Below are positions 24,131-41,443 of a stretch of 64,000 nt of DNA, one piece after another. A program made the position numbers and the translations under genes. Within the stretch, counting starts at the first letter, position 1. Each line of letters begins with the position of its first letter. This DNA comes from an uncultured Bryobacterales bacterium (GTDB taxonomy: Bacteria > Acidobacteriota > Terriglobia > Bryobacterales > UBA6623), in assembly GCA_951813065.1 (NCBI GenBank), contig CATOTH010000002.1, forward strand, positions 186,001 to 250,000. The letters are read 5' to 3'. Under the pieces are notes generated by a model, which was not told where the DNA came from, searched no databases, and saw only the letters and a list, made by a program, of their open reading frames with translations.

Positions 24131-24296
24131 GGCCGGTGACCGTCGAGTCACCACCCCGCGGTCACCGAACATCAGGCGGATACTGACGATCTCAGGAAGC
24201 CAAACCATCACAGGACCACCAACTATAACGATCTCGTCGCTGGAATTCCTTTTGAACAGCCGGTGCCGCGGGGCTCCGCCGGACGAAGCCACCTGA

Positions 24297-27167
24297 CTAG
24301 GGTGACTTCAGCCGCTCAACCCAAATCGGACTTCCCCAGGCGATCTCCCCGTTGTCTTGGACGACGCGGACGTAGTAGTACGCCCGTCCCAAAGGCGGAT
24401 CGGTGTCGGTGTAGACGACACTGACCTCACGCTGGTTGGGACGAGTCGCGTAGACTGTCCGTTCGTTGCGGATCACCTCGACTCGCGCGACGGTGCCAGT
24501 TCCCTCGACGTGGACCTGCAGAGGAGGGATCGATTCCGTGGCGAACGCCGCCCCCATGAAGTGCTCGCCCAGTCGGTATTCCAAGATGATGTTGTCGGTG
24601 GCACCGTAGGTGCGACGCTGTTTGATCGCATCGAAAATAGCGGCTCGAGTCGGAGCCTCAGTGTAGACCATTGCGTATGAAATATGCGTGGACCAGTGAT
24701 CGGAACTTGCGATCGTTCCCAGCCGGTACCCCTTGCGATATGCATTCCAGAGAAATCCGTCCTCCCGGTAGCCGCCGATCGGGTTGTCGTCGGCGGACCG
24801 GGGTGCGCGCGGCGCTCCCGGGTGTTCGTACGAGACGCGGTCACCCTGGAAGATCTCAACTACCGGCTCGACGTCGGGGTCGTTGTCTCGCCAGTCCGTT
24901 CCCATGCTGGATCCAGTGGTGTGCGGCACGGAGATCCCGCCCGAGCGCCGCAATGATTCGTAGAGCAACTTCGTATCGTTCTCAAGCACCGTGTCCCGAC
25001 CGGCAGCGACCGTCGGACGGGGGCGATCAAAGCCGGCCTTGGTGTGGAACGAGACGACTGGAACGCCGCGCCGGGTGTGAAAGATGTTGCGATGCCCGTT
25101 CGGGTAGGCAACGCTCCGCTCGTATGCATAAAACGTCGTGAATGCCGACCGGATATGAAAGAGATCACAGGTCTTCTCTATGAGCCACCACCAGTACTCG
25201 CTGTCGCCACCCGAGTTGTGATCGGTCACCGCTCCGAAATCCATCGCTGCGGCGTCGAGCATGTAGCGATAGAAGTCAAACACGGACCCGTCCACCATGC
25301 CCCCACTCGAGTCCCATGAGAACTCCGTGTGGCGATGGAGATCGCCGCGCACGATCCGGTTCTCGGCGCCGCTAATGGATGTTCGGTACGAGCGGATGGC
25401 ATCGACTTCCGCGCTCTCGCGGGGGTGAACCGACGGAACCGGGGCGGAATCGCCCGGATCGCTGGAAACAAGGTCCAACGAAACTGGACCCTCCGCAGGT
25501 CCCAGACGCGCCGCTACGATGTTTGCCCGCACGTTTCGAACGGGGCGTTGTTCAAGCCGGCCGTCGGTCGGCCAGACGACTCTCAGGCTCCCGTCCGGGC
25601 CGAATGCCGCGTCGGCTCGCGCGGAGATCCGGCCCCAGCTCTCGGGCATCGTGCGGACTGTGGACCAGCGGTCCCCTTCGAAAAAGACGACGGCGTGTTC
25701 CCAATACGTCGGTCGAAAGCCGAGGCTCTCCGTCCAGCGGACATGGTTCCATCGATGGAACAGCAGGGCAATCCGGCCGCTTGCCGGGTCGACATGCAGT
25801 TGAGGAAAGTCGTGATCAGGGATTCCGGCTGCAGAGAGCTTGTCGGCAAGACTCGAGCTCGGTACCATTCGGCGGCCGCCTTCGAGAACGGCGAGGTTGA
25901 TCTTGCGAGACTCATACAGCCGCGCTCCCGGAGCCGAGGGCTGGTTGATCCAGGTCGTCCAAAGCTCCCGTCCTCTTGCGATCCAGCGCGGATCGGTCGT
26001 CGGTCCGGAATCCTTTCCCCAGTTCACCGCGCCCTCGTCCCAAGCCACCCAAACTCGCCCGTCGAGATCGACCGCTACGGAGGCGTGGGCCTCGAACTTC
26101 TCGGTGGCGGCAACAGGCACGACCGGACCGAGTTGCCCGCCAGCGAACCGTCGCAGGAAAACATCGTAGTTTCCATTGCGATAGCTATCCCACACCACGA
26201 CAGCCGACCCTTGCCGGTCAATGGCAATCCGGGGTTCCCAATCGTTTGCCGGGTGATCGCTGACTTGAATTTCGCGTGACCAGCGCGAACCGTCGTGGAA
26301 CCGCAAGAAGATGTCCGAGTTGGCGTCGCGGAACCCTTGCCAGACCACCCACAGCCATCCACGCGAGTCCGCGACTACGTGGTGCTCGATGTCCGGATTT
26401 GGATGCGAGCTCAACCGCACCAGGTCGCCCCAGCGGCTCCTCGCTTCGTCGAACCCGCGCGCAAACAGATCGAAGTTGCCGTCGCTCTGCTGCGCCCACA
26501 CGACCCACGGCCGCCCGTTCGCAGAAAGGGCGACCTGCGGGCGCCAAACGTCGCCCGTCGCTCCTGGCACGCGACTGAAAGTGCGCCAGGACCCATCGAG
26601 CTTGCGAAGACGAACCTCGTCCCGCCCGCCGCTGTACGATTGCCAGACCAGCCAAGAAGCGCCGCTCGCGGCAACGGCTACCGACGGATAGTCGTCGAAG
26701 CGGGAGTCGTCTGTGAGCTTCTCGGCGCCGAGCAAGCCGGAAACACGGACCGAGCCGTCGAGGAACACAAGCTGGTCCCCAGCCGAGAGCTCTTCTAGGC
26801 GGAAGGAAAAATTGCCGTGGTCGCTTGTGACTTCGAGGCGCCCGCCCGGATCAGCCGAGCCCCGAACGAGCAACCCTTTTGGAGTGGGTCCCGGCCGTGT
26901 GGGATGCTTGGTGACGACCTCGAAAGTATCCAGCTCGATACGGTCCTGGCTGGTGAAGAGCCAGCCGCCGAGCTCGTCGATTCTGGCGCCGTCACCTCCT
27001 ATCGAACCCGCCCAGCGCTCGGGCGGATCGTCACCATAGCCGAACGTCACGCGAACCGAGAAAGGATCCGCTTGGACTGTCGCTGTGACGAGCAGAACGA
27101 CGACCGCCAGCACCCAAGCGCGGCGCCGGTGAGATAGCGAGCAACCCGCGAACAATTCCCGACACAT
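24297..27167 (-). CDS. Secreted beta-propeller protein with C-terminal DUF3604/PHP-like metallohydrolase domain
   Basis: About 956 aa from ATG 27167, which gives a basic N-region and hydrophobic helix (RRRAWVLAVVVLLVTATVQA) typical of a signal. The first 550 residues are repeated blades of the type SWLVWQSYSGGRDEV, PWVVWAQQSDGNFDL, LWVVWQGFRDANSDIF, AVVVWDSYRNGNYDVF, VWVAWDEG, a TolB/WD-like propeller with about 35-50 residue periodicity. The C-terminal part has RGDLHRHTEFSWDSSGG, AVTDHNSGGDSEYW, GISVPHTTGSSMGTDW and LGTIASSDHWSTHIS, which are the His/Asp metal-ligand blocks of DUF3604 (PHP-like, phosphoesterase or amidohydrolase-like). Substrate unknown. It precedes a sulfatase on the same strand, so a role in breakdown of an external polymer is possible. 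Confidence 0.8.
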   Translation of the reverse strand: MCRELFAGCSLSHRRRAWVLAVVVLLVTATVQADPFSVRVTFGYGDDPPERWAGSIGGDGARIDELGGWLFTSQDRIELDTFEVVTKHPTRPGPTPKGLLVRGSADPGGRLEVTSDHGNFSFRLEELSAGDQLVFLDGSVRVSGLLGAEKLTDDSRFDDYPSVAVAASGASWLVWQSYSGGRDEVRLRKLDGSWRTFSRVPGATGDVWRPQVALSANGRPWVVWAQQSDGNFDLFARGFDEARSRWGDLVRLSSHPNPDIEHHVVADSRGWLWVVWQGFRDANSDIFLRFHDGSRWSREIQVSDHPANDWEPRIAIDRQGSAVVVWDSYRNGNYDVFLRRFAGGQLGPVVPVAATEKFEAHASVAVDLDGRVWVAWDEGAVNWGKDSGPTTDPRWIARGRELWTTWINQPSAPGARLYESRKINLAVLEGGRRMVPSSSLADKLSAAGIPDHDFPQLHVDPASGRIALLFHRWNHVRWTESLGFRPTYWEHAVVFFEGDRWSTVRTMPESWGRISARADAAFGPDGSLRVVWPTDGRLEQRPVRNVRANIVAARLGPAEGPVSLDLVSSDPGDSAPVPSVHPRESAEVDAIRSYRTSISGAENRIVRGDLHRHTEFSWDSSGGMVDGSVFDFYRYMLDAAAMDFGAVTDHNSGGDSEYWWWLIEKTCDLFHIRSAFTTFYAYERSVAYPNGHRNIFHTRRGVPVVSFHTKAGFDRPRPTVAAGRDTVLENDTKLLYESLRRSGGISVPHTTGSSMGTDWRDNDPDVEPVVEIFQGDRVSYEHPGAPRAPRSADDNPIGGYREDGFLWNAYRKGYRLGTIASSDHWSTHISYAMVYTEAPTRAAIFDAIKQRRTYGATDNIILEYRLGEHFMGAAFATESIPPLQVHVEGTGTVARVEVIRNERTVYATRPNQREVSVVYTDTDPPLGRAYYYVRVVQDNGEIAWGSPIWVERLKSP

Positions 27168-27939
27168 CTTGAGGCAACCCCGGACGATCGGTCGCCAGTG
27201 TAGCGCGCCGCAGAGTTTCCAGAGTGGGATCTCCGTCCGAACGGCTTCCTCCGCGCTGCCCTGTTGCCGATGCGGCGATAGCACGGCATCCATGACGCCG
27301 CGCCACGTTTCCCCGTTCCATGCGTCGAATCCCTTGCGTGACAGGATCTTGAGTGAGTCAAGTTGACCCCGTCATTCCTGCGGCCTCAAGCTGCGCCTCG
27401 GGTTCTGCTGGCCGGCTCGTGGCCGCGGCCAGAGGCTTGACGGAGGTCTGGGATCTCAGGCACTATGAGTACCGCTCAATTCGCTTTGTCCGACTCGCGG
27501 AGTTCGCCGCAAAGGCGTTGATTACCATAACTCTTGGAATGTCGATCACTCACCGGACAGTGACGAACCACGTCGTTAATCACTCACCGGTCACCTGCGT
27601 CAAGGCGCACAACAACTCGAAGGAATGGAAACCTCAATGTTTCGCAACAGGCGATGCAGGATTGACTGTTTCGACCGCTGGCTTGACAACTCGCGTGAAG
27701 GACCCTTTGGCGAAGCTCGCGGCGGTCCCTCAGCCCTGGCAAGAGCCCCTCTGCCGGTCACTATCCGTGCCATGCCAACCTCCTCAGGCAGTCTCGTGAT
27801 CCCGTCCTCGATTTCGTGCCGCTGCCATGCACTCAGCAATCCTCGACTGCTAGCCTCAGAGAGCGGCTTCCGTGCCCATCAGGATACAGCCGCACAACAG
27901 CTTGAACGGTAAGCAGCTCAGAATTGGACCGACAGGATC
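27168..27939. other. Long gap upstream of the ZIP gene; possible relic DNA
   Basis: 772 bp with no convincing gene. Base composition is locally more AT-rich than the surroundings (around 27460-27620). The frames at 27353-27799 (plus) and 27600-27839 (minus) are open but have no recognisable domain and their codon use looks random. A 12-bp direct repeat is present at 27545 and 27579. The stretch 27620-27790 has the look of decayed mobile-element or intron DNA, but I cannot name a family. Confidence 0.4.
27545..27590. repeat. Pair of 12-bp direct repeats ATCACTCACCGG
   Basis: Copies at 27545-27556 and 27579-27590, 34 bp apart start to start (about three helical turns). Between them is the near-palindrome AACCACGTCGTT. 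This could be a regulator-binding site or part of a relic element end. It is 350 bp upstream of the ZIP gene. Confidence 0.5.
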
Positions 27940-28776
27940 GTGACACCGGACTCCCTACTGCTGTTGACGGGTTATTCCGTGGCGATTGTCACCGCAGCCA
28001 TGCTCGGCGTTTGGGTGCAAAGCAAGATTCACCTCACCCACACCCGCATGCAACTGGCGATGAGCTTCGTCGCGGGCCTCGTCCTCGGAGTGGCGCTTTA
28101 CCATCTGGTGCCGCACAGCCTGGCTCGAATCTCAGGTCCCAATGCGGTAGGGATCACGGTCTGGTGGATGATCATCGGAATGATCCTGATGGTGTTGCTC
28201 CTGCGGGTGTTTCAGTTCCATCAACATGATTTCGGTAACGACGGGAACCACCATCATGAACATCACGCCGGCAATGGAGGCGATACCCACTCGCTCAATT
28301 GGCTCGGAATCACCTTGGGTATGGGCCTGCATACGCTGACCGAGGGGGCCGCTCTCGGAGCGAGCGTCCGGAGCGATTCGCAGAATGGAGTGGAAACCGA
28401 ACTGGTCAGCTTCGGGATGTTCCTGGCGATCCTTTTCCACAAGCCGCTGGATGCATTCTCAATCCTTGGGGTGATGCGGATTGCGGGAGTTGGCCATCGC
28501 GCCGCGTCATTGGCCAATATCGGCGTCGCACTCCTTTGCCCGCTCGCTGCATTCCTGACATGCTGGGGGATCGGCTTTCTTGGGCCCGCGGAAGGAGACG
28601 CGATCGGCCGCGCCCTGGCGTTTGGAGCTGGTGCGTTGCTCTGTATTGCATTGAGCGACCTGCTGCCGGAAGTTCATTTCCACGGCCATGATCGCCTTCT
28701 GCTTACTGTGTCATTCGTGGCGGGAATCGCTGTGGCCTACAGTCTCCACTACATCGAGAGCCTGCCCGCGCCTTGA
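27940..28776 (+). CDS. ZIP-family divalent metal (zinc) transporter
   Basis: Inner membrane metal permease of 278 aa, about 8 hydrophobic segments. TM4 carries GMGLHTLTEGAALG, the HxxxEG metal motif, and TM5 carries FHKPLDAFS, a variant of the usual HK-PEG in which the Glu-Gly is replaced by Asp-Ala. The cytoplasmic loop between TM3 and TM4 is His-rich (HHHEHH, residues 107-112), as in many ZIPs that bind Zn2+. GTG start at 27940 with CAGGA close upstream. It points towards the minus-strand permease-SPFH operon, whose last gene ends 31 bp away. With the nearby efflux genes it suggests a local zinc/copper homeostasis island. Confidence 0.88.
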   Translation: MTPDSLLLLTGYSVAIVTAAMLGVWVQSKIHLTHTRMQLAMSFVAGLVLGVALYHLVPHSLARISGPNAVGITVWWMIIGMILMVLLLRVFQFHQHDFGNDGNHHHEHHAGNGGDTHSLNWLGITLGMGLHTLTEGAALGASVRSDSQNGVETELVSFGMFLAILFHKPLDAFSILGVMRIAGVGHRAASLANIGVALLCPLAAFLTCWGIGFLGPAEGDAIGRALAFGAGALLCIALSDLLPEVHFHGHDRLLLTVSFVAGIAVAYSLHYIESLPAP

Positions 28777-28806: not shown

Positions 28807-29295
28807 TCAGAAAAACAGCACCAGAAGCGTGAGAGCGCCCATGCCGCCGAGCCCGAATGCGCCCGCCCCGAGCAGGCCCGCGAAAGTCGCCGAGTCGGCG
28901 TAGCGGAAGGTCTTGTCCTCTATCGTGAACATAACCTCGTCGCGGTTCGCTTCGCCATCGACGAATCGCTTCAATCCAGTTTCGGCGCTGTGGGCCTCCT
29001 TGACTGCCACCACGGTGACAAGGATCATGGACAGGGCCGCAGCGAGGGTCCCCACACCGAAGACGAGGAGAGTAATCAATGCCAGCCAGTGGTAGGCCGG
29101 CGTCGCGTCAACGCCGGAAGCGCTCATGAAACCGATGATCAGGGCGGCACCGCCTCCGTTTCCGAAAAGGACCAAGCGGACTGTCTCCGTGATTAGCCGG
29201 AACATCGACGAGCGACGCATCGCAACAACCTTGTAGAGTTCGCGAAGCCACTCTTCACCGATCTCTTCGCCTGAGAAGTCCTGCAGTTTCTTCAC
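28807..29295 (-). CDS. Small membrane protein, last gene of the permease-SPFH operon
   Basis: 162 aa, not recognised. The N-terminal 45 residues are charged and amphipathic (EEIGEEWLRELYKVVAMRR). There are three hydrophobic segments: about 47-60, 70-96 and 138-162 (GLLGAGAFGLGGMGALTLLVLFF at the very C-terminus). Between the last two lies a polar loop with ETGLKRFVDGEANRDEVMFTIEDKTFRYADSAT. Start is GTG at 29295, which overlaps the stop of the upstream binding-protein gene in a GTGA, so it is translationally coupled to it. I could not place it in a family; its conserved position would be the main clue to function. Confidence 0.78.
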   Translation of the reverse strand: MKKLQDFSGEEIGEEWLRELYKVVAMRRSSMFRLITETVRLVLFGNGGGAALIIGFMSASGVDATPAYHWLALITLLVFGVGTLAAALSMILVTVVAVKEAHSAETGLKRFVDGEANRDEVMFTIEDKTFRYADSATFAGLLGAGAFGLGGMGALTLLVLFF

Positions 29296-30524
29296 TGATC
29301 GTCACCGCCCATCAGTTGGGAACCAGCCAAGTCAATCAGCCGAACGTACGTCGAGCCGGTATTTGTGCCGGGAGGGATCTGGATGGTCCAGTCATCGATT
29401 TGCACCGGCTCGGACTCCAGTGCGGTAGCGAGGAATGCCTCGCGCGTTGGTGCTTCGCCTAGCCGACTCAGCACATCGATGACGAAACGTCCGACAATAT
29501 AGCCTTCCAGCGCGACCGTATCGCCGAAGTGCCCACCCCGTAAGCCCAGCAGGTCTTCCCGCAATTCGGAATAGTCTTCCGCATCATCAATCGCCCCGTG
29601 AAACCGCCGAACCAGTTCCAGGTTTGGATCCTCGGGGTCCGGCACAACTTCGGCTACCAAGATCCGCTCCAAGATAGTCTCGCTGAGGTTGTCCAGCCTC
29701 TCGTACAGGTCATGCGACGCCACGATAGACAGGTTGGCCATGACGTAGTCGTGCCCCAGTGACACTGCCAGGTTGATGACATCGGCGTTGGCCGCATGGC
29801 TTCCAATCAGCAGAACGGCGTCAAGATCCGCCTTGGCAAGCGTGAACAGGCTGGAATGGACGGCGTGCGTATTGGGCGAATAAAAGGACTTCGCGATGAT
29901 GGGTAGGTCATATCCGTCGAGAACCGACCTGTAGTTCGCCAGCGCCAAGCGTCCAAAAGTGTCGTCTTGGTAGATCACCCCGAATCGTCGTTTCCCGAGT
30001 TCGTTAACCATGTGCTTCACCAGCACCTCGATCTCTTCCAGGTAGCTCGCTCGGAGATTCACCACGTGCGGGTATCTCTCGAAGTTGCGCAAGATATCGG
30101 CGCCGGTAAATGCACCGACGAATGGAATTCCCGCGTCGCGCAGGATCGGGGCAATCCGCTTGGCTGTTGGCGTTCCTACACCTCCGATGACGGCAAAGAC
30201 ATCCCTTCGAGCTACGAAACGCTCGGCGTTCTCAGCCGCCCGCTGCGGTTCGTAGGCGTCATCGATAGCGACCAACTCGAGCGGCCTGCCATTGACACCG
30301 CCTTGGCCGTTGGCCTCCCTGAACGCCGCGTCGATTCCGGCCCGAAGCCGCACCCCCAGATGTCCGTTCGGCCCCGTGAAACACGCGCTCTGCCCGAATA
30401 TGATGACTTCCCCGTCACCCTGCGCGGCTGCGGGGGGCGCCAACCACATGACGCAGGACGCCGCGAAGACAAGGGACGCCGACCGGACTGCCGGCCTATT
30501 CTTTCGGCCCGGCATTTGCGCCAC
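29292..30524 (-). CDS. Branched-chain-amino-acid-type ABC substrate-binding protein (orphan)
   Basis: Periplasmic type I binding protein of 410 aa (LivJ/Peripla_BP_6 class). Signal peptide with AASCVMWLAPPAAAQ. The fold is indicated by IIFGQSACFTGPNGHLGVRLRAGIDAAFREANGQGGVNGRP, AVIGGVGTPTAKRIAPILRDAGIPFVG, RRFGVIYQDDTFGRLALANY and DAVLLIGSHAANADVI. The start is GTG at 30524 because GGGAGGGG lies 6 nt upstream; an ATG at 30515 and one at 30545 are also in frame. The gene overlaps the end of the HflK-like gene by 29 bp. No permease or ATPase subunit is nearby, so it may be a ligand sensor for the SPFH/permease assembly rather than a transport subunit. Confidence 0.87.
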   Translation of the reverse strand: MAQMPGRKNRPAVRSASLVFAASCVMWLAPPAAAQGDGEVIIFGQSACFTGPNGHLGVRLRAGIDAAFREANGQGGVNGRPLELVAIDDAYEPQRAAENAERFVARRDVFAVIGGVGTPTAKRIAPILRDAGIPFVGAFTGADILRNFERYPHVVNLRASYLEEIEVLVKHMVNELGKRRFGVIYQDDTFGRLALANYRSVLDGYDLPIIAKSFYSPNTHAVHSSLFTLAKADLDAVLLIGSHAANADVINLAVSLGHDYVMANLSIVASHDLYERLDNLSETILERILVAEVVPDPEDPNLELVRRFHGAIDDAEDYSELREDLLGLRGGHFGDTVALEGYIVGRFVIDVLSRLGEAPTREAFLATALESEPVQIDDWTIQIPPGTNTGSTYVRLIDLAGSQLMGGDDQ

Positions 30525-31848
30525 CGTTTTCCCCTCCCTGGACATCGCTGGCCGGAGCCGGCTCGGGCGGGGCTGGCTCGGGCGGGACTGCTTCCGCATG
30601 GGTCTCTTCGATGACCTGCTTATGCTCCACTTGCTGCACGCCGAACCGGCTGCCCGGAACAACGTCCCGATGCTCGAATATCGACAGCGTGTCAAATAAC
30701 AAGGAACGAGGGGTGACCCCGCCCAAATGGTCACGCTCCTTGCCCCTTTCGTGGAAGCGCCCGTCCAACAGGCCCTTGTCCGTGGTTTCCAGTCCGTGCG
30801 TGGTCTTCGGCGCCGTGGCCACCATCGGCCTGTCCGGCTGAATACCCGCTCCCGGCATTCCGCCAGCAGCGACCGCCGACGGGGCTTGGGGGCCAATTCC
30901 GTCGATCATGTTGATGTCGATGTTGGCCGTGCCCGCGGGATTGACAGCCGCGAGCTGCGCCTCGCCGAGGACCGAACGCATGCGGTTCCAATAGCGCGTG
31001 ATCGCCACCTGGCGAGGCTCGTCGCGGTACGCGGCCAGTAACTCAGTGAACGCATTGGCGCTGCTTTGAGCTTGGAGCAAGCGCTCTCTCGCCCTGGCTG
31101 TCGCGCTCAGGACAACAGCCTCGGCCTGCCCCTGCGTCCGCAGGACCAGCCTCTCCTTCCTGAGGTTGGCTTGGCTTACGGCTTGGATGCTCTCAGCGAC
31201 CGCATCACTGACGTCGCGAAACGCCGCGACCGTCTCATCGATCGGTCGGACATCCACGATGCTGACGGCAACCAGTTCCACCCCGAGGCCGTAGTCTTCC
31301 AGGTCCTCGACGATCTCGTCGTAGAGGCGGCGCTCAATGATCTCCCGGTTGGTCGTGAATATCAGGTCGATGAAGTTCTGGCCCATGATGTTGACCAGAT
31401 GGCCCCTGGTGAGCATCGTGGTCACGGCCATGGGATCGGTCGATTCATACAGGAAGTCCCTGAGGTTGTTGATCGTGTACTGCAGGACGACGTCGACCTC
31501 GAACAGATCCGGGTCCCCGGAGAGGATCGTGAAGTTGACCGTTTGATCGCTGGTGCTTGCAATTTGGTGGGTGGCGATCCGCTTCACCGCTCGAACATGA
31601 ACCCTGTCGATGATCGGAATGTGGAAATGGATACCGGGCTCGCCATGCTCCTCGATGACCTTCCCAAATCGCACGACGACGCCAGCCTCCTCTTTCTTGA
31701 CAATGTGGAGTCCACTGCCGAGGACCGCCAGGACGACGGCGAGCAAGACAAGGTTGAGAATACGGTCCGTGTGCTGCGCGGCATTGTCGAATGCCGCGTA
31801 GATGATCCGCGTGCTGCGCGGCAGTGGCTGGCCGCCGGTCTCCGTCAC
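30496..31848 (-). CDS. HflK-like SPFH/band 7 membrane protein
   Basis: 450 aa. One N-terminal transmembrane helix (about 32-50, LNLVLLAVVLAVLGSGLHIV), then an SPFH domain (EEAGVVVRFGKVIEEHGEPGIHFHIPIIDRV, DPDLFEVDVVLQYTINNLRDFLY, GHLVNIMGQNFIDLIFTTNR, DVRPIDETVAAFRDVSDAVAES) as in HflK/prohibitins, then a coiled coil with Ala/Glu/Gln. The C-terminal 120 residues are a low-complexity Pro/Glu/Gly tail (VPPEPAPPEPAPASD), longer than in HflK. GTG start at 31848 overlaps the stop of the HflC-like gene as GTGA. HflK/HflC form large membrane cages around FtsH; here no FtsH is encoded nearby and the two proteins are instead coupled to a metal-type permease. Confidence 0.86.
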   Translation of the reverse strand: MTETGGQPLPRSTRIIYAAFDNAAQHTDRILNLVLLAVVLAVLGSGLHIVKKEEAGVVVRFGKVIEEHGEPGIHFHIPIIDRVHVRAVKRIATHQIASTSDQTVNFTILSGDPDLFEVDVVLQYTINNLRDFLYESTDPMAVTTMLTRGHLVNIMGQNFIDLIFTTNREIIERRLYDEIVEDLEDYGLGVELVAVSIVDVRPIDETVAAFRDVSDAVAESIQAVSQANLRKERLVLRTQGQAEAVVLSATARARERLLQAQSSANAFTELLAAYRDEPRQVAITRYWNRMRSVLGEAQLAAVNPAGTANIDINMIDGIGPQAPSAVAAGGMPGAGIQPDRPMVATAPKTTHGLETTDKGLLDGRFHERGKERDHLGGVTPRSLLFDTLSIFEHRDVVPGSRFGVQQVEHKQVIEETHAEAVPPEPAPPEPAPASDVQGGENGGANAGPKE

Positions 31849-32819
31849 CGTGTCGGTATCTCCTGACTGTCCAAGTACTTGAACAACTCGTTGTCGGCTG
31901 GCAGCAGCAGCGTTGTCTTGTCGTCGATGATCGAATCGTAGCTGTCCAGCGCGCGGACGAACCGGTAGAACTCGGGGTGCGCACGGTAGGCTTCGCCCAG
32001 CACCAGCATCGCTTCGGCCTCGGCTTTGCCGAGGATGGTTGTCGCTTCCGCATGCGCGGTCGCCATGATTCTCTCGTGCTCGGTGATGGCCAGTGCCTCA
32101 ACACGGATCGCCTGCTCCTCGCCTTCGCTCCGATAACGCGCCGCGATGCGCGCTCGCTCCGCGATCATCCGCTCGATCACGCTGGCCCGGTTCTCCGCTG
32201 GCAACGTGTACTCGATCAGCCCGACCTTCAGCACGTCGATGCCGTACTCGGCTTCCGCGATCGGCTCGATCCTGTCAAGGATCTCCTGCGAAGCGACGCT
32301 CAGGTCTTCATGTTCCAGGCCGAGGCTAACGAACGCTTCGCGCGCCTTGTTGCTGACCACGATGCCCGCACTGGACAGGTAGAGGTCCTGGAGACGCTCG
32401 ACCGCATTGCCCTCGTTGCGGATGGCCTCGACATATCGGATCGGATTCGTGACCCGCCAGAGGACATACCCGTTGACCAGCACGTTCTTCTGGTCTTCCG
32501 TGATGAGTTCCTGGGCCGGAGACGTCAGGTTGTGGACTCGCCGGTCGACCTTGTAAACCTTGGAAATCGGCCACGGGAACTTGAAATGCAGGCCAGGGTC
32601 GCGAACCGGGGGCGAAATCCTGCCGAAATGCGTCAGAACTCCCTGTTGCGCCTCGTCGATGACGTACACGCTGTCGTACACGATCGCGGCAAGCAGCAGG
32701 ACACCGATCGTGCCAGCGACACCCAGCTTCCTGACTCCTCGCGACAGGTTGCTGATCGGCTTCCACAGGCTCCCGAGCGCCTTGTCGGCTAGTTTCATTG
32801 CTTGGCTCAGTTTGCTCAT
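31845..32819 (-). CDS. HflC-like SPFH/band 7 membrane protein
   Basis: 324 aa from ATG 32819, which overlaps the upstream stop as ATGA. One transmembrane helix (about 38-54, GTIGVLLLAAIVYDSVY) is followed by an SPFH domain typical of HflC: VIDEAQQGVLTHFGRI, DPGLHFKFPWPISKVYKVDRRV, ITEDQKNVLVNGYVLWRVTNPIRYVEAIRN, DVLKVGLIEYTLPAENRASVIERMIAERARIAARYRSEGEE, and an Ala/Glu coiled coil ending in FYRFVRALDSYDSII. The length and blocks match HflC closely. Its position between a permease-SPFH fusion and an HflK-like protein suggests that the three SPFH domains co-assemble. An alternative is a duplicated hflKC locus with only accidental linkage, which the overlaps argue against. Confidence 0.88.
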   Translation of the reverse strand: MSKLSQAMKLADKALGSLWKPISNLSRGVRKLGVAGTIGVLLLAAIVYDSVYVIDEAQQGVLTHFGRISPPVRDPGLHFKFPWPISKVYKVDRRVHNLTSPAQELITEDQKNVLVNGYVLWRVTNPIRYVEAIRNEGNAVERLQDLYLSSAGIVVSNKAREAFVSLGLEHEDLSVASQEILDRIEPIAEAEYGIDVLKVGLIEYTLPAENRASVIERMIAERARIAARYRSEGEEQAIRVEALAITEHERIMATAHAEATTILGKAEAEAMLVLGEAYRAHPEFYRFVRALDSYDSIIDDKTTLLLPADNELFKYLDSQEIPTR

Positions 32820-35140
32820 CGAGTCGGCTCCTGTAACGGAGGAGGCATCGCGACCCCTTCCGAGGATCTCTTCCACACGGCCACCCTGTCCAGGCTCCGC
32901 TGGTTCGGGACGATGGTCTTCTGCTTGCCTGCGAGCGCGGTCTCGAGCTTTTCGCGCCAGAGCATGTTGTACAGGACTTCCGGCGCTCTGCGTGCGGCCC
33001 CGGCGACATCTTGCACCGCCTCGGACTCCGCAGTCGAGACGGTAACGTTGCGGAACGCCTCGCCGGTGGCCTGCCCGACCTCGTAGGCGGCGTTCCCGTG
33101 CGCCCTCGGCACCAGGGTCACCAGAAATTTCTGTGCGTTGACGATAATGCGTTCCCGATCGTCTTGCGCGCTCGAAATCTCGCGGAAGGCGTTCATGGTT
33201 TCGTCTATGGGGCGGATCTCCAGCAGGTTGACCTTGATGAGATCGATCGACTGGAGCGCCGGATCGGACTCGGATTCGCTGGCAAGCAGCTCGCGGACCT
33301 CGCGTTCGAGTTCCGCACGCTCAACATTCAGGAGATGGTCCAGGTCGTGAACCGAGACGAATGTGCGCAACTCGTCCTTGAGATCATCCATGATCACTTG
33401 TTCTGGATTCTCAGTCCTGTAGTGGTAGGTATAGGCATCGTTGACCAGGTACTGAATGTTGGCCTTGATCGCCATGAGGTTCAGGTCCCCCGAGAGGAAT
33501 TCGTAGCTCACGTCGTTTCCGAGGGACTTCACCTCGCGAACCGGCCACTTGTCAATCTTGAAGAATGGCCAGGGGCCCAGGTAGTGCAGGCCCGGCGGCA
33601 CGTCGCGCGAGATCAGTTTCCCGAACAATCGGGAGTAGGCGACGGAGCTCGGATCCACGACCGTCAAGCCGGTTGACAGAAACAGGACCGCAAGCAATAT
33701 GCCGACCGTCGACTTCATGAGGGTGCGCGTCGCGATCGTGCCGACTACGGGACGGTAGGCCGCCAAGCGGTCCCACACCTGCTTCAAGCGACCGAATACA
33801 GGCCGGATGTTGGAGACGAGATCTTCGTACCCGCTCTTCAGCGCGCCTTCGCGGAATCGCCAGACAATCAATCCGATGAGGGTGATCGCGCCAGCCCACT
33901 CCACGAACAGGATGGCTGGCGATTCGGAGGCCGACAGGTTGACCGGCAGCGTCAGCCCGAAGGCGATGATCAACATGTCGATGGCGATTCCAAGAACGGT
34001 CGTCACCGCGATGACGCCGGCAACATAGATCGACCCGAAGCGAGCACCGAACTGGCTCACGATGATCGCGATCGTGCCGCTGTTGGTGGCTGGCCCGGTC
34101 ATCAGGAAGATCAGCGCCGCACCCGGACTCACCCCCTTGGCGACCAAGGCGGCGGCGATTGGAGTGCTCGCCGACGCGCAGATATAGAGCGGAATCCCGA
34201 CCAGCACCATGACCGGATACGACAGCCAGCGCGCATATTCGCTAGCCATCAGGTTGTCTGGAATCGCCAGGAATAGCACGCCGCCGAGGGCGACGCCGAC
34301 CAGCAGCGCGAAGAGGATGTCGTCCGCTACCTCGACGAAGCCGTAGCGGAAGACATGCTTGACGACCTTGCCGAGCCTCAGCCCTTCGCTCTGCGTATCC
34401 GTGCCCGAACTGGCGCCTCGGGCTGGTTGAGTGTAGAACGCCGGCTTGACCCATGAAACGGCCTTCGTGCCCGTGAGTCTTTGAGCAGCGCCGCGGGTAA
34501 CCTCCCGAATCCGGACAAGCAGCATCGACCGCAACTCGGCCGCGCTTACATAGCAGTCTTCGGAGGCAGTCATCAGGGGCGTGTGCGCCCCGTGGTCATG
34601 ATCGTGCCCGCAGCTACCGTGGTCGTGCCCGCAATCGTCTTCGTCATGGGTGTGATCATGCCCGGAATGACCATCGCCATGCGTGGGCTCGCTTTCTGCG
34701 TGCCGACTGGTTTCGCCGCTGTCGTCCCGGATCAGGCCGATGCAGAAGATGCCGGTGATCACGGCCGTGACGAAGCTGACGAGCGGTCTGACCACTGCCG
34801 CGACGAATCCAAAGAATGCATGCGTGACCAGAATGGAGTCCGCGCCAGTCTCGGGGGCGGTGATCAGGAAGGAAATGCATGAAGAACGGGACGCGCCTTT
34901 CTTCCGCATTTCGGCCACCACCGGCACGACCGAGCAACTGCATAACGGAACGGGCACACCGACCGCCGCGCTCGTGCAGACCGATTTCAGGCTGTCATCA
35001 CTGAGCCAGCGAAGAATCGCGGCCCGCGAAATGAGTACGTGGATCAGGCCCGCCAGAAAGAGGCCCAGAAGCAGCATGGGCGAGAGGAGCAAGAACGATG
35101 CCCAAAGAAAGTCAACTAGCCGAACCGCTGCGTCTGGCAT
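32816..35140 (-). CDS. DUF318/SO_0444-type metal permease fused to an SPFH domain
   Basis: A 774-aa fusion, the most unusual protein of the window. Residues 1-430 are a two-part permease of the DUF318 (UPF0718/ArsP-like) class: hydrophobic helices near 8-36 and 105-137, the conserved Cys motif VPLCSCSVVPVV (65-70 PLCSCS), a cytoplasmic His/Asp/Cys-rich loop (154-186, about a dozen His), helices near 270-295, 305-330, 335-350, 370-398 and 410-428, with CASASTPIAAALVAKG and FLMTGPATNSG. SO_0444-family members of this class are annotated as Cu/Zn efflux transporters. Residues 474-496 are an additional transmembrane helix and 500-720 an HflK/prohibitin-like SPFH domain (DVPPGLHYLGPWPFFKIDKWP, LLEIRPIDETMNAFREI). 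The single open frame rules out two separate genes. First gene of a five-gene overlapping operon. Confidence 0.88.
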   Translation of the reverse strand: MPDAAVRLVDFLWASFLLLSPMLLLGLFLAGLIHVLISRAAILRWLSDDSLKSVCTSAAVGVPVPLCSCSVVPVVAEMRKKGASRSSCISFLITAPETGADSILVTHAFFGFVAAVVRPLVSFVTAVITGIFCIGLIRDDSGETSRHAESEPTHGDGHSGHDHTHDEDDCGHDHGSCGHDHDHGAHTPLMTASEDCYVSAAELRSMLLVRIREVTRGAAQRLTGTKAVSWVKPAFYTQPARGASSGTDTQSEGLRLGKVVKHVFRYGFVEVADDILFALLVGVALGGVLFLAIPDNLMASEYARWLSYPVMVLVGIPLYICASASTPIAAALVAKGVSPGAALIFLMTGPATNSGTIAIIVSQFGARFGSIYVAGVIAVTTVLGIAIDMLIIAFGLTLPVNLSASESPAILFVEWAGAITLIGLIVWRFREGALKSGYEDLVSNIRPVFGRLKQVWDRLAAYRPVVGTIATRTLMKSTVGILLAVLFLSTGLTVVDPSSVAYSRLFGKLISRDVPPGLHYLGPWPFFKIDKWPVREVKSLGNDVSYEFLSGDLNLMAIKANIQYLVNDAYTYHYRTENPEQVIMDDLKDELRTFVSVHDLDHLLNVERAELEREVRELLASESESDPALQSIDLIKVNLLEIRPIDETMNAFREISSAQDDRERIIVNAQKFLVTLVPRAHGNAAYEVGQATGEAFRNVTVSTAESEAVQDVAGAARRAPEVLYNMLWREKLETALAGKQKTIVPNQRSLDRVAVWKRSSEGVAMPPPLQEPTR

Positions 35141-35651: not shown

Positions 35652-36935
35652 GTGATGGAGAAACTACCGATTGCAGTCTGCGTAGTGATAGCTGCGGCGG
35701 CGCTGGGCGCTGACCAGCCCGCACAGAGCGCAGCCATCCCCACCGAGATCACGCTGGGGCAAGCGGTCGAGTTGGCACTGGCACGTAATCCGGCGCTCAT
35801 GGCGGCTCGAAACGGAATCGAAATGGCGGAGGCGGATGCCGTCAGTGCCGGGTTGCGGCCCAATCCGGAGATTTCGGTCGAATCGGAGAGCTATCCCTAC
35901 TTCCGTTCCGATCCGGGCCCGTTCTTCAGCAACCAGGAAATCACCGCTAGGTTCGACTACGAAATCCAGACCAAGCGCCGGCTCAGACTGGGAACGGATG
36001 CCGCCAAGCTCTTCGTTCAAAGAGAGGCTGCGGTGTTCAATGACGTAGCGCGACGCTTGCGGCAGGACGTCCAAGAGGCGTTCTACGGCGTCTTGCTGGC
36101 CGAATCAAACCGGGCGCTAGCCGAGGCGATTCTGGATCAAACGGACCAGGTCATCGCCTTGAACCGGACACGGTTCGCGGAGGGGGAGATCTCCGGGCTG
36201 GAACTTACGCGCATCGAAGTCGAGCGCCTGCGGTTCGCTGACGACCTCTTCCAGGTGCGTTTGGAACTGCGCAATGCCAAGGCCGCGCTGCTCGCCTTGC
36301 TCAACGCCCCCGACCTCGGACTGGACTTGCAGGTGCAGGGAGACTTGAACTCGATCCCGGACCTGGGTATGCCCGTTGACGCCACCGGCGCGGATGCCCT
36401 TCGAATGGCGATCGAGATGCGACCGGATCTGCAAGCCGCGGTTGCGGAGGTCGAGAGCTCCGTTGCCCGGAATCGCTTTCAGCGCGCGATTTCAGCCCCG
36501 AACATCACAGTCGGAGGAGGGTACAAGCGAGACGGCCCGGACCACAGCTTGGTGGCTGAGGTGTCCGTACCCTTAACGATCTTTGATCGCAATCAGGGGG
36601 GGATTTTGCGTTCGGAGGCGGAAATGCGCCAAGCCGAGAACCTGTTCGCCGCGGCGCGCAACCAGGTCGCGCTGGAAGTGCGACAGGCCTACAACGCCGT
36701 CGAAGTGACGCGAGAGCGGGTCGAGTACTTGCAATCCCAGCAGGTCAAGCAAGCCGAGGAGGCCGTCGCAGTGACCCTGCAGGCGTACCGGCTTGGCGGA
36801 GCTCCGCTGATGAACTATCTTGATGCGCAGCGCCGATACCGCGACACGATGCGCATTCTGAACCAAGCTCTCTTTGATGAGCGGATCAGCCTGTTCGCAC
36901 TGGCAGCGGCGATCGGGGGGGGACAACAGCGATGA
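35652..36935 (+). CDS. Outer membrane factor of a heavy-metal RND system (TolC/CzcC-like)
   Basis: 427 aa outer membrane/periplasmic channel protein of the OEP family. Signal peptide IAVCVVIAAAALGADQPAQS. Two homologous helical halves are seen: ITLGQAVELALARNPALMAARNGIEMAEADAVSAGLRPNPEI at the start of the first, and the second with FDRNQGGILRSEAEMRQAEN and SLFALAAAIGG at the end. This is the CzcC/CusC type by length and context. The start is GTG at 35652 or ATG at 35655; GGGAGG is 12 nt upstream of the GTG. The stop overlaps the ATG of the adaptor gene by 4 nt (ATGA). Confidence 0.88.
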   Translation: MMEKLPIAVCVVIAAAALGADQPAQSAAIPTEITLGQAVELALARNPALMAARNGIEMAEADAVSAGLRPNPEISVESESYPYFRSDPGPFFSNQEITARFDYEIQTKRRLRLGTDAAKLFVQREAAVFNDVARRLRQDVQEAFYGVLLAESNRALAEAILDQTDQVIALNRTRFAEGEISGLELTRIEVERLRFADDLFQVRLELRNAKAALLALLNAPDLGLDLQVQGDLNSIPDLGMPVDATGADALRMAIEMRPDLQAAVAEVESSVARNRFQRAISAPNITVGGGYKRDGPDHSLVAEVSVPLTIFDRNQGGILRSEAEMRQAENLFAAARNQVALEVRQAYNAVEVTRERVEYLQSQQVKQAEEAVAVTLQAYRLGGAPLMNYLDAQRRYRDTMRILNQALFDERISLFALAAAIGGGQQR

Positions 36936-38215
36936 CCGGCCAGCCATCGGGGCTCTTTGGCCTCGGATGGACCGGAATCGCCGCCCTGCTTGCGTTTGGA
37001 ATGGCGCTGGGGTTTTTCGGATACCCCTGGATTTCGTCCCCTCCGGAGGCGGCGGGCCTCGAAACCGCACACTTGTCCGAAGAGGAGGAGGCGGACGAAA
37101 GCGGCGGAGTACACATTTCAATTGAAGTCCAGCGCGCCAACGGCGTGGAACTGCGTCGGGCGGAAGTTCGCGAATTCGAATCTCTCCTGCATGTCACGGG
37201 GACGGTTTCGGCCGACCGGGCGCGCGTGGCGCGAATTCGGCCGCTGGCCCGCGGAGTCGTTGACCGTGTCTTCGTGCAACTGGGTGAGCGGGTCGAGACG
37301 GGCGACCCGCTCGTCAGCTACGACAACATCGACCTCGGGCTGGCGATCGGTGAATTCCTTGCAGCGGACGCCGACCTCCGCGGAACGAGAACCGCCCTTG
37401 AGGTCAGCGAGACGATTCTTGCGCGGAGCCAAGAGATGCTCAAGGTCGAGGCCGTCGCCCGTACGGAGCACGATCTCCTCGAGGCCGAGTTCCAGTCTGC
37501 CCTGGCGATGGTTTCCAGCGCGGAGGCCCTGGTGTCCAAGTTCGAGGAGCAGCTCCATCGATTCGGCCTCACCGAGGACGATCTGGAGAGATTGAAGCAG
37601 GCCGATGACACCGGCTATCACCGGACCGTTTCCCAGGCCACCTTGCATGCCCCCGCGCCGGGCATCGTCACCAACTACGATGTGGGCTCGGGCGAGGTGA
37701 TCGATCCGTCAAGCGAACTCATTACGATCACCGACATATCCTCTGTATGGGTTCTCGCCAATGTCAATGAACGCGACCTGAACGCTGTTCGCGTGGGAAA
37801 GCCCGTGTCGATTCGGGTCGCGACTTATCCCGGAGAATCGTTCTTGGGCCGGATTGCCTACACCGGCGACACCGTGCGACAAGAGACCCGCACGGCGCTT
37901 GTCCGCTGCGTCGCAAGCAACCCCAGATCCCGTTTGAAGCTCGGCATGTTCGCCACTGTCGACATTCCGTCAGGAAGCGTCCACCGGTCGCTCGCAGTTC
38001 CGTCCGCGGCGATTCAGGAGGTCGATGGTCACTCGGTCGTCTTCCTACGCCGGACGGATGTCGAGTTCGAGCAGCGCGAAGTGGAGACAGGGCTGGAAGC
38101 AGATGGATGGGTGGAAGTCTCGGGGGAGGTCAGCGCTGGTGACAGAGTGATTGCATCGGGCAGCGCCTTCGCGAAGGAAAGCGTACCAAGCCACACGGTC
38201 GGTGGTGGGCACTAG
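36932..38215 (+). CDS. RND membrane fusion (adaptor) protein, copy 1 (CzcB/CusB-like)
   Basis: 427 aa periplasmic adaptor linking RND pump and outer membrane channel. N-terminal membrane anchor (GLGWTGIAALLAFGMALGFFG), acidic linker (SEEEEADESGG), barrel-sandwich segments RIRPLARGVVDRVFVQLGERVETGDPLVSYDNIDLG and ATLHAPAPGIVTNYDVGSGEVI, a helical hairpin between them, then the beta-barrel domain DISSVWVLANVNERDLNAVRVGKPVSI and the membrane-proximal domain. It is clearly paralogous to the adaptor at 41444-42730: both share EEQLHRFGLTE and ITDISSVWVLA. It starts inside the stop of the outer membrane factor gene and converges with the RND gene. Confidence 0.9.
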   Translation: MTGQPSGLFGLGWTGIAALLAFGMALGFFGYPWISSPPEAAGLETAHLSEEEEADESGGVHISIEVQRANGVELRRAEVREFESLLHVTGTVSADRARVARIRPLARGVVDRVFVQLGERVETGDPLVSYDNIDLGLAIGEFLAADADLRGTRTALEVSETILARSQEMLKVEAVARTEHDLLEAEFQSALAMVSSAEALVSKFEEQLHRFGLTEDDLERLKQADDTGYHRTVSQATLHAPAPGIVTNYDVGSGEVIDPSSELITITDISSVWVLANVNERDLNAVRVGKPVSIRVATYPGESFLGRIAYTGDTVRQETRTALVRCVASNPRSRLKLGMFATVDIPSGSVHRSLAVPSAAIQEVDGHSVVFLRRTDVEFEQREVETGLEADGWVEVSGEVSAGDRVIASGSAFAKESVPSHTVGGGH

Positions 38216-38348: not shown

Positions 38349-41300
38349 TCAGCTTGCAGTTCGTTGGCCCATCGCGCGCTCCTCGATCCAACGGTATATC
38401 GCGGGGAGAACAAGCAATGTTAGGAGCGTCGACGTGACCAGCCCCCCGATCACGACGGTCGCTAGCGGGCGCTGAACCTCCGCACCGGCCGTGGTGGACA
38501 AGGCCATGGGCACGAAGCCGAGACTGGCGACAAGGGCTGTCATCAAGACCGGCCGAAGCCGGATCTCCGCGCCGCGCAGGGCGGCCTCCGTGGGGGAGAG
38601 CCCTTCTTCTCGCATCTGGTTCAGACAACTCACGAGCACGACGCCATTGAGTACCGCCACGCCGAACAGGGCAACGAAACCGACCCCCGCCGAAATGCTG
38701 AACGGAAGATCCCGAAGATACAGCGCCACGATTCCCCCGCTAGCAGCCAGCGGCACGTTCAAGAAGACGATCGTGGCCATTCGGACAGAATGGAACGCCG
38801 TGTAGAGCAACGTGTAGATCAGCAGGAGCGCAAGCGGAACGATGAGGGCCAGCCGCAGCGAGGCCTGCCGGAGGTTGTCGAAGGTGCCGCCGTATGCGAT
38901 GGTGTAGCCCGGCGGCAGCGATACGTTCTCCTCGATCGAACGCTGCACGTCGGCGACGAAGTTCCCGAGATCCCGCCCGCGCACGTTTGCCTCGACCGTG
39001 ATTCGGCGCTGGATGTTCTCGCGGCTGATTTGGGCCGGACCCTCGTCGATCGAGATCTCGGCGAGTTCGGCGAGCGGAATGAGGCGCCCCCGGGAGTCGG
39101 CAACAGGAAGGTGCTTGATCCGCTCGACTTCGGAGCGATCCGAGGGTTGAAACCGGACCTGGAGCGGAAACCGTCTCTGTCCCTCGAGGATCTGGCCGAC
39201 CGTCCGCCCTCCCATCGTCTCGACAGCCTCAAGCACCTGGGAGGCATTGATTCCGTAGCGGGCTATCTGCTCCCGCAGGATGCGGATTCGCAGGAACGGC
39301 AGACCGGCAGTTTGCTCGACCTTGACGTCGGCGGCGCCGGGGACAGTGCGGGTGGCCTGAGCGATCTCCTCGCCCACCGACCTCAGGCTGTCCAAGTCAT
39401 CGCCGTAGAGCGTGATGGCCAGCTCGGAACGGATGCCCGCAATCAATTCCTGCACTCTCAATTCGATCGGTTGGGAGTAGCTGAAGATGTTTCCCGGCAC
39501 CCGCTCACGGAGAGCGTCGTCGAATCTAGCGACCAATTCGGCCGCCTCCCCGCTCCCCTTCTGCGCCTCTTCCGGCTTGAGCAGGACATAGATGTCACTG
39601 GTCTCAACACCCATCGGGTCCGTCGGGATCTCCGCTTGCCCAGTGCGGGAAACAACACTGTCAACTTCAGGGAATTCCAGCAGCACTTTCTCGATCAGCG
39701 TCGTGCTCTTGATCGATTCGGAAAGGCTAACGCTGGGTAGCCGCCATGCCTGGACCGCGATGGAACCCTCGCCGAGCCGGGGAACGAATTCAGCCCCGAG
39801 GAAAGGAATCATGGCGAGCGACGCCGCAAAGACCAACAGGGCCACCAGCACGACGATCGACGGACGATCAACGGCCGCCCGAAGCGTTGGCAGGTAGGCG
39901 GCCTTGGCCCAGCGAAGCAGCCGGGTCTCGCGTTCCTTCAACCCCTTGCGAAACACCCACGATGCCAGCACCGGCATCAGCGTCAACGACAGGATCAGCG
40001 ATCCGACAAGCGCGAAAATCACCGTCAGCGCCATCGGACGGAACATCTTCCCTTCCACGCCCTCCAGCGTGAGGATCGGCAGGTAGACGACGATGATGAT
40101 TCCTACGGCGAAGACGATCGGCTTGGCAACCTCTCTGCCGGCCTCCAGGATTGCCTGCTCCTGGGACATGCCGGTACCCTTGCGGGCCGACACTTTCCGA
40201 ACGATGTTCTCGATCATGACCACCGAACCGTCGACGATGAGCCCGAAATCAATCGCTCCCAGACTCATTAGGTTGCCGGACAGGCCCGCCCGTACCATCC
40301 CGGTGAACGCGAACAGCATCGACAACGGAATGGCGGTGGCGACAATCAAGCCCCCTCGCACATTGCCGAGCAGGAGCAGCAGGACGGCGACCACGAGTAG
40401 CCCGCCCTCGACAAGGTTCTTCTCGACTGTCGCGATCGTTCTCTGCACCAGATCGGTCCGGTCGTAGTAGATGTCGATTTCGACCCCCGGCGGCAGGGAC
40501 CTGCGCGCATCCTCCAGGCGCTGCTTCGCCCGTTCGACAACGATCCGCGAGTTTTCACCCATCAACATCAGCACCACTCCAGTGACGGCCTCGCCCCGGC
40601 CGTCCCGCGTCACCGCGCCTTGGCGGACGAGTGGTTCAAGCACGACCTGACCCAAGTCCCCGATGTAGATGGGCGTGCCGCCCAGGGTGGCCCCTACGAC
40701 GATGTTGCGAATGTCCTCCACGGTTTCGACGAGGCCCTCTCCTCGCACGAGATACTGCTCCTGGTTCTTTTCGATGTAAGCGCCGCCCGAGTTTGCGTTG
40801 TTGTTCTCGATGGCCTCGAACACCTGTCCGAGCGAAATACTCAGGCTGGCCAGCTTGTCGGCATCCAACTGGATCTCATACGTCTTGGCTTCGCCTCCGT
40901 ACGCATTCACCTCCACGACTCCAGGCACCGAGCGCAGCTTGAAGGCGACGTCCCAGTCCAGGATGCTGCGCAGCTCCATCAGGGAATGGGTGTCGCTCCG
41001 GACCTCGAATTGGAGAACCTCACCCAGGCCAGTTGAGATCGGACCCAGCTCGGGCTTGCCGTAGTCTTCGGGAATGGCATCGTGCGCTTGCTCCATGCGC
41101 TCGATCACCAGTTGTCGCGCCAAGTAGATGTCGACGTCGTCGTCAAAGTACACGTACACCGCGGAAAGGCCGAACCGAGAGACTGACCGAATGCTCTCGA
41201 TGCCGGGCAGACCGCTCAGCGCGGTCTCGACGGGGAATGTGATGAACTGCTCGACTTCGAGGGGGCTGAGGCCGGACGAGGTCGTCAGCACTTGGACCTG

Positions 41301-41432
41301 GTTGGGAGTCACGTCGGGAACCGCGTCGATCGGCAGAAGGTACATCGAATTGACACCCGTCCCGATAAGGAGCGCCGTCAGCACGAGAACAAGGAACTTG
41401 TACCGGAGGGCGAATTCGACAAATCGATGCAT
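38349..41432 (-). CDS. Heavy-metal efflux RND pump (CzcA/CusA family)
   Basis: 1027 aa inner membrane proton-driven exporter of divalent or monovalent metal ions, HME-RND class. Typical N-terminus VEFALRYKFLVLVLTALLIGTGV and YLLPIDAVPDVTPNQVQV. The TM4 proton-relay motif is AIDFGLIVDGSVVMIEN with D395, D401 and E408, the D-D-E arrangement described for CzcA-type (Zn/Co/Cd) pumps. Two large periplasmic loops and about 12 transmembrane segments; C-terminal half has LGAEFVPRLGEGSI and the second transmembrane set ending LTLLVLPAIYRWIEERAMG. ATG at 41432 is 11 bp after the stop of adaptor copy 2 on the same strand. Metal specificity is inferred only from the motif and context. Confidence 0.94.
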   Translation of the reverse strand: MHRFVEFALRYKFLVLVLTALLIGTGVNSMYLLPIDAVPDVTPNQVQVLTTSSGLSPLEVEQFITFPVETALSGLPGIESIRSVSRFGLSAVYVYFDDDVDIYLARQLVIERMEQAHDAIPEDYGKPELGPISTGLGEVLQFEVRSDTHSLMELRSILDWDVAFKLRSVPGVVEVNAYGGEAKTYEIQLDADKLASLSISLGQVFEAIENNNANSGGAYIEKNQEQYLVRGEGLVETVEDIRNIVVGATLGGTPIYIGDLGQVVLEPLVRQGAVTRDGRGEAVTGVVLMLMGENSRIVVERAKQRLEDARRSLPPGVEIDIYYDRTDLVQRTIATVEKNLVEGGLLVVAVLLLLLGNVRGGLIVATAIPLSMLFAFTGMVRAGLSGNLMSLGAIDFGLIVDGSVVMIENIVRKVSARKGTGMSQEQAILEAGREVAKPIVFAVGIIIVVYLPILTLEGVEGKMFRPMALTVIFALVGSLILSLTLMPVLASWVFRKGLKERETRLLRWAKAAYLPTLRAAVDRPSIVVLVALLVFAASLAMIPFLGAEFVPRLGEGSIAVQAWRLPSVSLSESIKSTTLIEKVLLEFPEVDSVVSRTGQAEIPTDPMGVETSDIYVLLKPEEAQKGSGEAAELVARFDDALRERVPGNIFSYSQPIELRVQELIAGIRSELAITLYGDDLDSLRSVGEEIAQATRTVPGAADVKVEQTAGLPFLRIRILREQIARYGINASQVLEAVETMGGRTVGQILEGQRRFPLQVRFQPSDRSEVERIKHLPVADSRGRLIPLAELAEISIDEGPAQISRENIQRRITVEANVRGRDLGNFVADVQRSIEENVSLPPGYTIAYGGTFDNLRQASLRLALIVPLALLLIYTLLYTAFHSVRMATIVFLNVPLAASGGIVALYLRDLPFSISAGVGFVALFGVAVLNGVVLVSCLNQMREEGLSPTEAALRGAEIRLRPVLMTALVASLGFVPMALSTTAGAEVQRPLATVVIGGLVTSTLLTLLVLPAIYRWIEERAMGQRTAS

Positions 41433-41443
41433 GCTGCTAGGCC

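Follow-up and report, generated by a model that had tools for sequence, protein, structure and literature searches.

Why would a bacterium make a metal permease and a subunit of an HflK-type membrane assembly as one polypeptide? The question is raised by an operon in a 64,000-nucleotide stretch of DNA (hereafter the window) from an uncultured Bryobacterales bacterium (assembly GCA_951813065.1, contig CATOTH010000002.1, positions 186,001 to 250,000; genome completeness 95.6%). There, an SO_0444-type permease runs on into an SPFH domain, and the genes for an HflC-like protein, an HflK-like protein, a LivJ-type binding protein and a small membrane protein follow. We call the transporter-fused HflK-type SPFH subunit K1 and the transporter-free HflK-like protein K2, so that the trio reads K1-C-K2. 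From comparative sequence analysis we conclude that the operon probably encodes an HflKC-derived SPFH trio specialized in metal transporters, one subunit of which is covalently fused to the pump. We tie the trio to metal transporters because fusion and gene order recur at 61 loci and because the same plan is found with other transporters.

The permease-SPFH fusion and its operon

The features of the operon are as follows.

32816..35140, minus strand: SO_0444-type permease fused to an HflK-type SPFH domain (K1, 774 amino acids); open frame with ArsP_1 and Band_7 matches
33851..35140, minus strand: permease half of K1, about residues 1-430, with PLCSCS and ICASAST half-repeats
34583..34705, minus strand: His-rich loop of K1, about residues 146-186; 13 His within residues 138-274
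32936..33733, minus strand: transmembrane helix (about residues 470-488), SPFH domain and helices (to about residue 735) of K1
31845..32819, minus strand: HflC-like protein (324 amino acids); TIGR01932 158.6 bits, above the cut-off of 134.4
30496..31848, minus strand: HflK-like protein K2 (450 amino acids); Band_7; TIGR01933 134.3 bits, below the cut-off of 159.4
29292..30515 (GTG start at 30524 possible), minus strand: LivJ-type binding protein with an N-terminal signal-like segment; Peripla_BP_6 155 bits
28807..29295, minus strand: orphan membrane protein, 162 amino acids, three predicted helices (three hydropathy peaks)

The initial annotation, made from the letters alone, had described an uninterrupted 774-residue permease-SPFH frame with four genes downstream, a PLCSCS motif and a His-rich loop. 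The minus strand does carry all five frames, the one from 35140 to 32816 is free of interruption from end to end, and both permease features are visible in the translation. The 4-nucleotide overlaps were likewise found, as ATGA between the fusion and HflC-like genes and as GTGA both between the HflC-like and HflK-like genes and between the binding protein and membrane protein genes. The fourth overlap, given as 29 bp, has that length if the binding protein starts at GTG 30524, and measures 20 bp if it starts at ATG 30515. With three of the four junctions being 4-nucleotide overlaps and the fourth 20 or 29 bp, translational coupling of the five genes is plausible. Of the family labels, HflC-like passes the cut-off of its model, whereas K2 and the SPFH part of the fusion (115.1 bits) both fall below the TIGR01933 (HflK) cut-off.

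The permease half matches Pfam ArsP_1 over residues 17-387 (134.4 bits, cut-off 32.3), and the fusion passes NF033936, the NCBIfam model of the SO_0444 Cu/Zn efflux transporter, with 313.3 bits against a cut-off of 300; we predict the permease to be a Cu or Zn exporter. Both Cys residues of PLCSCS and those of DCY and YICAS are invariant in 124 aligned sequences, and the His-rich loop is a region of low confidence in the predicted structure. According to the available part of PMC3219624, SO_0444 of Shewanella is needed for growth under Zn or Cu stress, and the accessible text of PMC10092412 describes a Nitratiruptor relative whose expression is induced by Cd and Cu.

The second half resembles HflK in layout and fold. 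A segment rich in K/R (residues 428-468; 8 K/R, 4 D/E) leads into the transmembrane helix and then the SPFH domain (Pfam Band_7/SPFH, residues 504-668, 44.3 bits, cut-off 23.6), which is the arrangement of HflK. Comparison with solved structures gave HflK as the closest match, with residues 473-745 of the predicted fusion structure aligning to HflK 79-345. In K2, the C-terminal tail (about residues 345-395) contains H351, H366, E371, D386 and H393, near-invariant in 47 sequences, and this His/Asp/Glu-bearing tail is a candidate for metal binding.

The binding protein begins with a hydrophobic segment of signal-peptide type, and its best-scoring solved chain is 4kv7_A (E 7.8e-39). The initial annotation took it for a periplasmic sensor, a proposal for which this segment and the LivJ-type family assignment are the evidence. 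Most likely it has a periplasmic role, sensing or holding either a metal chelate or a small ligand of amino-acid type. The small membrane protein had no match in Pfam, NCBIfam or solved chains; it has 241 homologues, and the 120 listed are 159 to 164 amino acids long. Its divergence follows that of the permease (rank correlation 0.79), as does that of HflC (0.75) and HflK (0.76). At six related loci (L031, L067, L070, L071, L074 and L004) a second, more distant LivJ-type protein lies near the permease, with 32-37% identity to the operon's binding protein and, in five of the six, on the opposite strand.

Distribution and descent of the trio

A protein search for the permease-SPFH fusion returned 892 homologues at E ≤ 0.001 out of 7997 scored candidates. 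The 120 matches listed, the window's own included, are 748 to 860 amino acids long and all carry ArsP_1; a precomputed SPFH domain is present in all but seven. Scanning one genome per species across 84,980 species yielded 117 relatives, the best 80 loci of which were analyzed. Permease and SPFH domain share one frame at 61 of these 80 related loci. At 55 of the 61, the genes for HflC, HflK, the binding protein and the small membrane protein follow in this order: 52 are intact, two (L038, L049) have a split HflK frame, and one (L071) was recognized through tblastn. Five of the remaining six end at contig borders, and L007 lacks the last two genes downstream. Among the 19 loci lacking the fusion, L070 encodes the SPFH domain in the next frame together with the rest of the operon, and 18 hold the permease without SPFH. 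By record title the fused loci come from nine phyla, three loci being unassigned: Pseudomonadota (Alpha- and Gammaproteobacteria), Latescibacterota, Acidobacteriota, Gemmatimonadota, Nitrospinota, Verrucomicrobiota, Binatota, Dadabacteria (under Thermodesulfobacteriota) and a Deltaproteobacterium (under Myxococcota). The fusion is neither an artefact nor local, and the conserved system that the initial annotation had envisaged, tying SPFH proteins to a metal permease, has strong support in this record.

The same plan occurs with other metal transporters. Another contig of the window's own genome (L108:5754-10780, minus strand) encodes a 1013-residue P1B heavy-metal ATPase-SPFH fusion that passes both TIGR01525 (556.7 bits, cut-off 346.25) and TIGR01933 (205.2, cut-off 159.4) and is followed by HflC and HflK. 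All 12 ATPase-fusion loci read have this trio, and their gene order, like that of the window operon (transporter-K1, HflC, HflK), differs from the hflK-hflC pair. The HflC of L108 has a His-rich N-terminal tail with 14 His in 60 residues; such a tail (at least 11 His in the first 60 residues) is found at six of the 12 loci, and two of the six lacking it have an uncertain HflC start. ATPase and SPFH parts were matched over their full length in six of 119 Acidobacteriota genomes, the window's own included, the other matches listed in those genomes being to the ATPase part.

On a conjugative plasmid of Aquibium oceanicum (L102:4308-7953), a CDF transporter-SPFH fusion precedes HflC, HflK, a peptidylprolyl isomerase and a heavy-metal P-type ATPase, a gene order known from this one locus. 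The fusion is annotated only as HflK (TIGR01933 215.3, above the cut-off) and has 361 homologues, with both domains in all 120 listed. P1B-ATPases and CDF proteins are mostly exporters. In a Binatia genome (L140:3942-10750), a second, divergent permease-SPFH fusion (SO_0444 model 356.6 bits, cut-off 300) lies within about 10 kilobases of a window-type operon and is followed by HflC, HflK and a ZnuA with His-rich repeats. Beyond ZnuA come an ABC-type ATPase and membrane-protein frames, which by eye read as znuC and znuB. Matches to this second permease type reach into SPFH in three of 99 genomes of the phylum, that of L140 among them. On a Vibrio plasmid (L106:6848-10217), the overlapping genes hflK-hflC-nhaA tie an SPFH pair to a Na+/H+ antiporter.

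A tree of 33 HflC proteins places 22 from metal systems (11 permease-type, 9 ATPase, 1 CDF, 1 permease-II) on one side of a branch and 11 canonical HflC on the other (support 97/92); the window-type HflC thus groups with the metal systems and not with the canonical FtsH modulator. Ordinary HflK forms a clade of its own in a 63-row HflK-type tree (support 100/99). These sequences are most simply read as a single old HflC lineage bound up with metal transporters, in which the transporter of K1 would have been exchanged or fused repeatedly.

The carriers are apparently mostly sponge symbionts. Sponges are the documented habitat for 16 of the 80 loci: 14 bear jk18x names, which the available part of PMC9531527 uses for metagenome-assembled genomes from Ircinia sponges, and two are Aplysina aerophoba bins in the list seen in PMC5649159. 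Such a habitat is compatible with the names of 38 more and unproven for the rest. Of these 38, 22 carry RHO, APA, COS or IRC tags, which fit the sponge species of PMC8163846 (the tags RHO1, COS1 and IRC1 do not appear in its main text as available), and 16 have p16x names styled like those of the Ircinia set, although p16x itself does not occur in the accessible portion of PMC9531527. The other 26 loci carry the names CO36, 277c/287ce, Plut, SB066 or UBA6724 or belong to untagged assemblies. In a tree of 60 fusions, phylum labels change 14 times against a minimum of 10, and some transfer between phyla is therefore likely. A case in point is L018, a Latescibacterota locus whose six compared proteins all share 88-97% identity with those of Gemmatimonadota loci, although a misnamed bin would give the same picture.

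Neighboring metal genes and proposed mechanism

Four metal-transport genes neighbor the operon.

27940..28776, plus strand: ZIP-family metal transporter, convergent neighbor; Pfam Zip 58.9 bits
35652..36935, plus strand: outer-membrane efflux protein of CzcC type, divergent neighbor; OEP
36932..38215, plus strand: CzcB/CusB-type periplasmic adaptor; HlyD_D23, TIGR01730
38349..41432, minus strand: CusA/CzcA heavy-metal RND pump; TIGR00914 1197.6 bits

A CzcA-like pump (at least 40% identity) is present at 27 of the 61 fused loci and a ZIP gene at 25. In the window, the region 38349-42919 combines a CzcA-type pump that has its own adaptor (42919-41444) with the divergent CzcC-CzcB pair, so that a single pump is matched by two adaptors. 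Downstream of the ZIP gene (22760-27293), a sulfatase adjoins a 998-residue DUF3604-type protein (weak match).

A P-type metal ATPase and a CDF transporter turn up in the same arrangement, which makes it likely that the proteins build cages holding metal pumps. The explanation that we favor, with a probability of roughly 0.55 as a whole, is that the three SPFH proteins assemble as a periplasmic cage with a tethered exporter. Precedents are the assembly of HflK/C around FtsH, described in the part of PMC13220708 available, and the stomatin-aquaporin 1 structure (PDB 9zd2). K1 would take HflK-like places in an HflKC-type wall, setting the permease in the membrane at or inside the ring, and the transporter-free K2 would serve as a spacer, there probably being too little room for a pump at each K position. 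Exported metal would pass from the permease into the periplasmic space so enclosed and may be bound there by the His/Asp/Glu tail of K2; kept from re-entering, it would be passed on, here probably to the adjacent CzcCBA-type pump. Caging or clustering of the permease would agree with the HflK-like topology of the fusion.

Several observations weigh against this account. The permease occurs without SPFH at 18 of the 80 loci. The initial annotation had named absence from close relatives as a sign against the fusion, and here the evidence is divided: of 10 other genomes of the window's genus, five have the fusion and five the permease only. Taken together, these counts suggest that the permease can work alone. 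At L062:9998-12752, about 100 bp separate an unfused permease from what is left of the small membrane protein (residues 84-141, 59% identity), after which comes a ZIP gene; it looks as if the SPFH and binding-protein part was lost in that lineage. This loss and the pattern in the genus make the SPFH part look like a dispensable accessory of the permease. The permease-II and CDF types each contribute a single long-branched row to the HflC tree, and their placing is less sure because the program warned of long branches meeting. A single clade of K1 subunits is no more than compatible with the approximately unbiased test (p 0.528). The binding protein diverges less in step with the permease (rank correlation 0.60) than the other operon proteins do, and neither it nor the small membrane protein was seen in the other three trio types; the two are accessories observed in the window's variant only. 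Native HflK/C is an open, nautilus-like structure and not a closed cage in the account available from PMC13220708, and "cage" may therefore mean partial enclosure. Finally, no more than two HflC proteins of the window's genome pass the family cut-off; both belong to transporter trios and could therefore also serve FtsH.

A still wider proposal, to which we would give a little short of even odds, is a general class of caged metal pumps. In a duplicated K1-C-K2 lineage, K1 would be a socket fused repeatedly to SO_0444 permeases, P1B-ATPases and CDF proteins; the compartment at the pump exit would bind metal and hand it on, and horizontal transfer would have made one such device common to sponge symbionts of many phyla.

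The main rival is FtsH recruitment, in which the trio would link the transporter to FtsH, recruiting or withholding the protease, and proteolysis would set the amount of pump in place of a metal-holding compartment. We consider this unlikely. The known complex of HflK/C with FtsH (PMC13220708, in the part available) and the want of an above-cut-off HflC outside the two transporter trios of the window's genome speak for it, but no FtsH-type domain occurs in the proteins scanned around the operon, and the His-rich tails on HflC partners suggest a direct role with metal. Moreover, six other genomes (8 searched, 6 read) have an ordinary hflK-hflC pair besides the trio, so that FtsH can be controlled there without the trio.

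SPFH proteins serve widely as microdomain scaffolds. It is less likely still that the SPFH domains here merely anchor the pump in a membrane microdomain, as a flotillin-like scaffold that neither encloses it nor handles metal, even granting that sequence cannot separate a cage from an open array and that native HflK/C is reported as open (PMC13220708, as available). The trio keeps distinct HflC-like and HflK-like partners, like HflK/C assemblies, and the best structural matches are HflK. Metal uptake or storage, with permease, ZIP transporter and binding protein capturing scarce metal, is improbable: the ZIP neighbors, the ZnuA and ABC-type frames after the Binatia trio and the importer family to which the LivJ-type protein belongs would fit it, but the P1B-ATPase and CDF partners are of mostly exporting kinds, heavy-metal RND pumps stand at 27 of the 61 loci, and the homologue SO_0444 is needed under metal excess, as cited above.

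Significance and comparison with known systems

The fusions bear on the role of bacterial SPFH assemblies apart from FtsH control: a covalent link identifies the client outright, and one SPFH lineage would therefore serve metal transporters. The fusions make the SPFH role testable in a defined operon and offer natural constructs for cryo-electron microscopy of a caged transporter. They also suggest that confining exported metal in space may contribute to metal tolerance, and the apparent crowding of one variant in symbionts of sponges, across many phyla, hints at metal pressure inside the host. The statement in the initial annotation that no described system has this gene set agrees with the open-access literature searched, where we found none, nor any HflK-type subunit covalently joined to a metal transporter in a K1-C-K2 trio. 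The modules are already known; their covalent HflK-metal transporter union within the trio is the new part and has a fair chance of being a class of its own.

The binding protein shares the Peripla_BP_6 family and solved relatives with LivJ/LivK of ABC importers; unlike them, it has no ABC permease or ATPase partner among the proteins scanned around the operon (window positions 22760 to 44975). The pairing of an SPFH protein with a small membrane partner recalls the SPFH-NfeD pair QmcA-YbbJ (PDB 8z5g), which, as far as the available record describes it, has no transporter fusion, whereas the small protein here is without a family or solved-chain match. Human stomatin-aquaporin 1 (PDB 9zd2) likewise joins an SPFH protein to a channel, but that pair, in the record available, is eukaryotic and non-covalent and is not a metal exporter. 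The permease half passes the same family model as Shewanella SO_0444; that model describes a single permease of 351 positions, whereas here a fused SPFH domain and four more genes are added. With E. coli HflK/HflC-FtsH, finally, the operon has in common HflC- and HflK-type subunits in which a transmembrane helix precedes the SPFH domain, overlapping genes, and matches in both sequence and structure. It differs in its lack of an FtsH-type domain in the nearby proteins scanned, in an HflC lineage apart from the canonical one, and in having three subunits, K1-C-K2, with K1 fused to a metal transporter.

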